Shown in pieces: positions 33,479 to 33,863 of a stretch of DNA of 33,863 bases. The notes under the pieces were generated by a model, which was not told the DNA's origin, made no database searches, and was given only the letters and a program-made list of their open reading frames with translations. How positions within the stretch are numbered: position 1 is the first letter of the stretch; each line of letters starts with the position of its first letter. The DNA lies in assembly GCA_017648065.1 (NCBI GenBank), contig JAGCJJ010000008.1:1-33863 (forward strand), read 5' to 3'. Source of the DNA: Kiritimatiellia bacterium (GTDB lineage Bacteria > Verrucomicrobiota > Kiritimatiellia > RFP12 > UBA3636). A program made the position numbers and the translations under genes.

Positions 33479-33863
33479 GTACACGAATGTTTGTGTGGTG
33501 GGTTGTAGTGGAAGGACACGGATATGCACCAATTGACACGAATGCTTATGTGATGGATTTGGGAACCACGAAAAGGCGTACACGGATAGGTTTTGGTGTG
33601 GTGTTTTCAAGGACACGGATATGCACCAATTGGCACGAATGCTTATGTGATGGGTATTTGGAACCACGAAAAGGCGTACACGGATGGGTTTGGGTGTGGT
33701 GTTTTCAAGAACACGGATATGCACCAATTGGCACGAATGCTTATGTGATGGGTATTGGGAATCACGAAAAGGCGTACACGGATAGTATTGGGTGTGGTGT
33801 TTTCAAGAACACGGATATGCATCAATTGGCACGAATGCTTATGTGCTGGGTATTGGGAACCAC
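33479..33863 (+). repeat. Tandem array of about 98-bp non-coding repeats
   Basis: Four units are seen, the last cut by the window end. The phrase ACACGGATATGC starts at 33516, 33613, 33711 and 33809, spacings of 97, 98 and 98 bases. A second landmark (A-A-C-C-A-C-G-A-A-A, one copy AATCACG) starts at 33564, 33662, 33760 and 33858, also 98 apart. Units 2-4 are nearly identical (a few substitutions), while the first 35 bases of unit 1 are more divergent. Each unit contains several CACGAAT/ACACGGAT-type short words. There are no unique spacers, so it is not a CRISPR array. Reading frames across it are artefacts because 98 is not a multiple of three. No gene was seen in 33362-33478. Confidence 0.9.

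Follow-up and report, generated by a model that had tools for sequence, protein, structure and literature searches.

GxxExxY nuclease genes between inverted arrays of seven-base words: a possible class of minimal bacterial mobile elements behind a 98-bp tandem repeat

A gene for a small protein of the GxxExxY family, lying between two arrays of seven-base words that are inverted with respect to each other, recurs in many bacterial phyla, and words of the same design constitute a 98-bp tandem repeat at the end of a contig of a Kiritimatiellia bacterium, a stretch of 33,863 bases hereafter called the window. The element so defined is ~0.4–0.6 kb long and consists of an inward-directed word array, one GxxExxY gene and the inverted array; its words follow the scheme C-R-C-N-R-A-[GAT] and succeed each other in steps of 9–10 bp, corresponding to about one helical turn. 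The association of the arrays with the gene is established by the flank comparisons, the word orientation and the pattern-free word search given below; it recurs across phyla, gene-less pairs with the same ends occur in one genome, close relatives have sites with and without the element, the word matches the protein subfamily and the protein is under purifying selection. The reading that we favor, with fair though by no means full confidence, is that GxxExxY and its word arrays represent a minimal mobile element, that the dispersed arrays are gene-less derivatives of it and that the array of the window is an expanded composite, the nuclease presumably acting on the words.

The array of the window lies upstream of the start of a polysaccharide deacetylase gene (PF01522; 32435–33361, minus strand) and has no gene inside. 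The deacetylase has a 67% relative in G001, a genome of the same genus, with a paralogue ending directly upstream, so that the site is not comparable between the two genomes. Tandem Repeats Finder, applied to the whole window, places the array at 33512–33863 (period 98, 3.6 copies, 94% matches) with a score of 613, the runner-up in the window reaching 47, and CACGRAT words lie at 33482, 33517, 33537, 33581, 33614, 33634, 33679, 33712, 33732, 33777, 33810 and 33830, giving unit-to-unit steps, by the first word, of 97, 98 and 98 bp. These data bear out the preliminary description, which had spoken of near-identical units with this period and of a head diverging from the later units; the head, on the plus strand like all the units, extends from 33482 to 33516 and holds one CACGAAT word and a G-rich spacer. 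Unit 1 (33517–33613, 97 bp) begins with the T-type triple CACGGAT-ATG-CACCAAT-TGA-CACGAAT (33517–33543), which is followed by the A-type word CCACGAAA (33566–33573) and, 14 bp on, by CACGGAT (33581–33587). The same order is maintained in unit 2 (33614–33711, 98 bp), with the triple at 33614–33640, CACGAAA at 33665–33671 and CACGGAT at 33679–33685, and in unit 3 (33712–33809, 98 bp), with the triple at 33712–33738, CACGAAA at 33763–33769 and CACGGAT at 33777–33783; unit 4 (33810–33863) stops with the contig, its last letters, GGGAACCAC, being the beginning of a CCACGAAA word, and any continuation past the window edge, of which the preliminary description had spoken, would fall outside the contig.

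Each unit combines, therefore, two kinds of seven-base word, namely CACGRAT (T-type), at 10- and 14-bp steps, and CCACGAAA (A-type), their order being CACGGAT-N3-CACCAAT-N3-CACGAAT in 10-bp steps, CCACGAAA and a further CACGGAT. The CACGAAT-type words had been correctly recognized at the outset but the CCACGAAA word, belonging to a second word family, had been missed, and CCAATTGG, earlier taken for the centre of the unit, is actually the middle word with its spacer (CACCAAT plus TGG), sitting in three seven-base words at 10-bp steps (CACGGAT-ATG-CACCAAT-TGG-CACGAAT), and not a palindromic centre. A structural RNA, which had also been suggested, is not supported for the unit, either by the Rfam search, in which no family matched in the array, or by its predicted folding, since the 98-nt unit is no better folded than dinucleotide shuffles (z = -1.0 on the plus and +0.7 on the minus strand); a gene-less inverted pair as a whole does fold (z = -3.2). 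The identical repeats with unique spacers that characterize a CRISPR are not found in the array, whose units are contiguous with 94% matches across the 98-bp period.

The proposal that a dispersed family has been tandemly expanded at this place has fared well, since both kinds of word occur throughout the genome, also apart from each other. The recombination hot spot and the protein-binding array, two further suggestions made at the outset, would each be compatible with the association with a nuclease. There are 30 copies of the pair CACGRAT-N3-CACGRAT in the genome and none of its backwards-read control, so that chance does not account for it, and CACGAAA-N2-CACGAA occurs 43 times (control 0). 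Elsewhere in the genome the CCACGAAA word is repeated every 9 bp; indeed, the composite has a fuller A part on C3, C23 and C33, namely CCACGAAA-N2-CACGAAA-N2-CACGAAA in 9-bp steps, and the A-type arrays of contig C1 are gene-less inverted pairs, AACCACGAAA ... TTTCGTGGTT.

That the repeat might be a plain unstable tandem repeat or an assembly artefact, unrelated to any gene, is an explanation to which the position of the array, at a contig end as on several other array-bearing contigs, lends some color. The window is the whole of contig C17 (33863 bases), whose end falls inside the array, in an assembly of 102 contigs and 2.06 Mb that is 88% complete; in 10 of the 21 array-bearing contigs tallied an array lies at most 300 bp from the contig end, compared with ~2% for random points on the same contigs, indicating that arrays are where the assembly breaks. 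We give this explanation hardly any credence, since contig C3 has composites with both word kinds in its interior, C23 and C33 carry them too, and tandem composites comparable to that of the window exist in another genome, G028, where one (L225) is made of CGCGAAA and CGCCAAG words and the other (L226) proceeds in 48-bp steps with CGCGAAT at 10 bp. The first of these (G028:C237:4100-4600) also contains, between its CGCCAAG and CGCGAAA arrays, the direct repeat AGTTCTAAAGTT, possibly a further unrelated family fused into the composite. As to a possible continuation of the window, the first 43 bases of contig C28 (G000:C28:1-43, L025) are 98% identical to 33629–33671, a part of the unit, so that C28 may, judging by this match, continue the window beyond the end of C17; on C28 an inverted CACGAAA array comes next, within ~100 bases.

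The genome of the window has two genes of the GxxExxY family (TIGR04256/PF13366, PD-(D/E)XK nuclease fold) and both are located inside arrays. The one on contig C37 is a 126-aa ORF (TIGR04256, 128.8 bits for a cut-off of 35; PF13366 PDDEXK_3, 125.9 bits for a cut-off of 22) flanked on both sides by CACGAAT arrays of the 10/14-bp kind; the one on C27 encodes a protein of 124 aa (GxxExxY match, 148.5 bits) flanked on both sides by CACGAAA arrays of the 9-bp kind. It follows that the unit of the window is a fusion of two word kinds for each of which the genome has one nuclease gene, and the 98-bp array is probably the local expansion of such a two-end composite by unequal recombination. The T-type words (CACGAAT) would pair with the C37 nuclease and the A-type words (CACGAAA) with that of C27.

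The association was followed in 40 genomes, comprising that of the window and its relatives, of which 30 gave a match to the GxxExxY family and 10 none. The flanking words vary from locus to locus (CACAGAG, CGCAAAG, CACGGAA, CGCGGAT, CGTGAAA, ACAGGATT and others) while the design is constant, the arrays being inverted across the gene and often ending a few tens of bases from the start codon; in the loci read, the gene between the arrays is GxxExxY. When the upstream flank was aligned locally with the reverse complement of the downstream flank, for own and for mismatched pairs, the 30 loci from the order of the window (of 31, L055 being left out for its short flank) gave a median score of 20.5 for their own flanks vs 8.5 for mismatched ones, with a score of at least 14 in 24 of the 30. 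The analysis was extended to 80 named loci, the best 80 of 583 confirmed stretches retrieved with an alignment of 8 of 29 proteins as the query; according to the record titles they belong to Verrucomicrobia, Planctomycetes, Omnitrophota, Bacteroidetes, Proteobacteria, Chloroflexi, Gemmatimonadetes, Calditrichia, Cloacimonadota, Dojkabacteria and others. One record (L094), a metagenome bin, goes under the title Chlamydia trachomatis, a dubious label, and its taxonomy calls for care. Among the named loci (L080 and L106 left out, their flanks being short) a flank score of at least 14 was reached by 47 of 78, as opposed to 350 of 6006 mismatched pairs, a background raised by the words that unrelated loci have in common, and none of 275 pairs shifted within these loci.

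In these best 80 named loci, word pairs upstream of the gene lie on the plus strand in 54 and on the minus strand in 14, and those downstream on the minus strand in 54 and on the plus strand in 16, the control windows giving 57 (plus) and 49 (minus) out of 837; upstream arrays thus point to the gene, and those downstream are inverted. The generic pair is absent from both flanks in 12 of the 80, some of these loci having atypical words (L134, L135) and some being perhaps devoid of arrays. A pattern-free search for tandem seven-base words found them in the flanks of 107 of 144 loci (the 80 named ones and 64 from the order of the window, i.e., the 69 listed minus two fragments and three partial low-scoring rows) vs 19 of 328 shifted controls; of the 107 loci, 78 have R-C-N-R-A running as expected and 10 have it in the opposite direction. 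This search was used in place of a 6-mer frequency test, which separated poorly from its wrong-orientation control (122 vs 107 of 144 at a threshold of at least 4), inverted words being counted in both readings.

The relationship between gene-less and gene-bearing elements can be seen in G019. Among the places listed for this genome, neighboring CRCRRAG pairs 21–600 bp apart are inward in 15 cases, outward in none and in the same direction in 4; of the inward pairs, 13 are spaced 61–132 bp and two, at 465 and 479 bp, hold GxxExxY genes. The ends of ten gene-less elements carry GGA-CACAGAG-N2-CACAGAG and, at a mostly fixed offset, a third CACAGAG, which lay outside the search pattern (16 of 20 exact, 3 with one mismatch); in all this, the third word included, they match the ends of the gene-bearing element (L040) of the same genome. 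The words of the copies are intact, while their spacers and interiors vary. No target-site duplication was found at the ten gene-less elements, the matching lengths being 0, 0, 0, 0, 0, 2, 2, 2, 2 and 4 bp vs a mismatched mean of 0.98, with element ends that may be off by a few bases. A gene-less family of ~200 bp with CACGAAG ends exists also in G024, with five two-ended copies (L207–L211) and two partly truncated ones (L212, L213). In another place of this genome (L214, G024:C52) CACGAAG arrays lie within a GC-rich repeated sequence (GGGGCCGCCGGACCCGCCGCCGC), seemingly another repeat.

An occupied and an empty state of the same site can be compared in the case of an element of G015 (L046, G015:C442) located between two ABC-transporter-like genes, as read from the translated ends. 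The same gene pair occurs without element or array in G012 (flanks 94–95% identical) and in G011 (90–91%), whereas in G003 (L047/L152, G003:C149) and G017 (L044/L150, G017:C358) a GxxExxY element with CGTGAAA words, which differ from the words of the G015 element, is present at this site, which is either a hot spot or the place of one old insertion whose words have changed. Gene and arrays are, then, absent together from the empty sites of two genomes.

Arrays are also modestly more abundant where the gene is present. In the 40 genomes the G-, A- and T-type patterns gave 4590 matches vs 565 for the controls, and the median excess for the three broad patterns was 57.5 in the 30 genomes with the gene and 19.5 in the 10 without (p = 0.035); A-type pairs are higher in genomes with a known A-type gene (p = 0.014) and T-type pairs in genomes with a known T-type gene (p = 0.004, the genome of the window being excluded because its spacing differs), p-values that ignore relatedness and concern genomes of which many are incomplete bins. 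A strict dependence of the repeats on the gene within one genome had led to a more specific prediction, which proved right only in part: CRCGAAT-N3 pairs, expected beforehand only in G028 and in the genome of the window, numbered 86 and 23 there, but also 75 in G024, 24 in G002 and 19 in G027, in which no cognate gene was found, and 7–9 in four further genomes. Likewise, ACAGGATT pairs numbered 21, 5 and 4 in the predicted genomes G028, G010 and G022, with the highest counts in the unpredicted G039 (34) and G024 (22). Three genomes in which no gene was found (G002, G014 and G016) are array-rich; such genomes are 73–87% complete. Genomes of this kind speak against the favored reading, as do the lack of a target-site duplication, the 12 named loci devoid of a generic word pair and the gene-less state of the window array; they imply that arrays can persist in an assembly after the loss of a cognate gene, or exist there with none.

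This persistence is what would be expected if the arrays were older and maintained by the host or otherwise mobilized, the GxxExxY gene being a guest that inserts into them in a homing-like manner. Such an origin, which we regard as unlikely though deserving of some weight, would also accommodate the lack of a detectable target-site duplication in the ten G019 elements and the fact that a sequence common to C1 and C27 precedes a gene-less inverted pair on the former contig and the gene-bearing pair on the latter; on the other hand, the site that is empty in G011 and G012 is free of any array, and in G019 the gene-less and gene-bearing elements have a common end architecture.

The agreement between words and proteins also speaks against a guest gene. 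A word could be assigned to 101 of the 144 loci, and on the protein tree, built from 129 columns and with many forks unresolved, the words change 58 times vs 73.5 in shuffled data (200 shuffles, minimum 69), the last base changing 6 times vs 18.4 (minimum 15); positions 4 and 5 follow the tree more weakly (31 vs 37.9, minimum 29, and 29 vs 32.8, minimum 25, respectively). The nearest protein has the identical word in 34 of the 101 loci, 8.8 being expected. The words ending in A are mostly in one clade (support 96) that includes the C27 gene, L075 being an exception elsewhere, and those ending in T are partly in a clade (81) that includes the C37 gene, the others (L039, L041, L186 and three Bacteroidetes groups) falling outside it. 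This agreement could reflect recognition of the word by the protein, or it could arise because gene and flank are inherited jointly; in both cases the arrays accompany the gene.

The protein itself has the features of a nuclease. All 29 proteins compared share E29, Y32, D69, E79, K81, Q93, Y97, N110 and F111 without exception and, to judge from E29, D69, E79, K81 and Q93, the PD-(D/E)XK active site appears intact in all of them. The structure model (pLDDT 95, pTM 0.87) has its best predicted fold match in the Cas4 protein SSO0001 (Foldseek E = 8.9e-5; Z = 10.0, rmsd 4.3 Å over 100 residues), and the next among the matches listed are restriction enzymes, RecB-type and Holliday-junction nucleases with Z of at most 8, a level at which the modeled similarity may be limited to a common arrangement. 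A sequence profile gave weak matches alone in the PDB, T7 endonuclease I coming first (E = 0.065). The dN/dS ratio is 0.04–0.10 in nine pairs with unsaturated dS and differing protein, an indication that the protein works for something.

Such strong purifying selection, and the intact words of copies that differ in spacers and interiors, would fit a host function as well, in which the arrays would be bound by a host protein with a role in chromosome organization or regulation, the nuclease having been domesticated for their maintenance. Within the genus, however, both copy number and word type vary, G-type word pairs numbering 4 (control 5) in the genome of the window and 194 (control 2) in G001; the gene is patchily distributed (30 of 40 genomes) and the space between two genes of an operon-like pair is occupied by an element in some genomes and not in others, so that we hold this explanation to be very improbable.

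To return to the mobile element, the lack of target duplication combined with iterated, helically spaced words argues against a standard cut-and-paste transposase and in favor of either a multimeric word-binding nuclease with break repair or gene insertion into arrays. In the former case, a dimer or multimer of the nuclease would bind those helically phased words that belong to its subfamily, cutting or nicking at them; repair of the break might then copy the element or gene-less derivatives to other sites, and unequal recombination would subsequently expand arrays such as that of the window. A wider proposition, which we put forward tentatively and hold with rather less confidence than the element itself, is that these elements are a new superfamily of minimal mobile elements of many bacterial phyla, with a Cas4-like nuclease gene between inverted seven-base arrays of helical pitch, each subfamily of which would read a word peculiar to it (ending in A, T or G; 9- or 10-bp pitch), spread without target-site duplication and have seeded the orphan CACAGAG, CGCAAAG, CACGAAT and CAGGATT repeats of environmental bacterial genomes.

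Several known systems offer partial parallels. REP and REPIN sequences are repeats partnered with RAYT (TnpA-REP) transposases (PMC3116915, PMC8266576). These transposases are of the Y1 HUH (IS200-like) type. Like the REPIN–RAYT systems, the present one has short, dispersed, many-copy sequences in inverted pairs with a short spacer, an enzyme gene flanked by the same sequences and a repeat type that tracks the enzyme type. The differences are that the flanked gene encodes a PD-(D/E)XK nuclease instead of a Y1 HUH transposase, that the elements are spread over many phyla and that their ends are direct arrays of seven-base words in 9–10-bp steps and not single palindromes; indeed, a palindromic REP unit of 20–40 nt is not found, the repeat being a direct word array with a unit devoid of special fold. 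MITEs are gene-less elements with terminal inverted sequences common to a gene-bearing DNA transposon. The gene-less elements described here similarly have the terminal inverted sequences of a gene-bearing one (G019 with L040; C1 with C27 in the genome of the window), but no target-site duplication was found and the end words are kept while interiors differ; furthermore, no DDE or other known transposase domain is encoded by the partner, which in the loci read is GxxExxY.

A Q-x3-Y motif after E-x-K is a mark of RecB-type nucleases, and GxxExxY has it invariantly. Cas4/RecB-type PD-(D/E)XK nucleases (SSO0001, 4ic1) also have the closest fold to the GxxExxY model; unlike them, GxxExxY is a minimal core (124 aa in the C27 protein) with an invariant E and Y in its first helices, and no Cas1/Cas2 or helicase partner was apparent in those flanks that were read. 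Free-standing homing endonucleases are encoded by a small, solitary nuclease gene, present at a given site in one genome and absent from it in a close relative. The lone small GxxExxY gene behaves likewise but is flanked by inverted word arrays that also occur gene-less at many sites, and its element lies between genes and not within a host gene, as read at the ABC-transporter-like site.

Short-word repeats of this type are abundant and, as orphan repeats, break assemblies, and no origin is, to our knowledge, accepted for them; since such words flank a small nuclease gene in many phyla, the orphan repeats now have a testable candidate engine. In the literature searched the family is hardly mentioned and almost unstudied: GxxExxY appears as a mere label in the parts consulted of PMC8934634 and PMC12085832, and no paper linking these repeats with GxxExxY proteins was found among open-licence papers. 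As far as these searches reach, a curated family model exists and a description as a mobile element was not found. The preliminary description would have been refuted had the copies elsewhere turned out to be pieces of a known gene or transposon. This is half the case: they do form the ends of GxxExxY-bearing elements, but these are not described as mobile in that literature. The link provides a testable system, with a 124-aa protein, a word set for each subfamily and sites that are occupied or empty in nature. Provided that the words are recognition sites, the family would offer a natural range of kindred nucleases whose word specificities are graded, and would add one more repeat–enzyme partnership to the REPIN–RAYT and MITE–transposase pairs.

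Phages gave no match to one GxxExxY query protein; among plasmids, 8 records have a GxxExxY match. In Hymenobacter polaris and H. arizonensis (L134, L135) the GxxExxY gene lies between seemingly the same two neighbor genes, and the inverted ends, missed by the general word pattern, are long (GCACAGAGTTAGG...AAAATGAGTTTCACAGAG). A long word, GTGATGCCAAAGGGACGC, is also common to the two flanks of a GxxExxY gene of the same genus as the window (L056, G001:C76).
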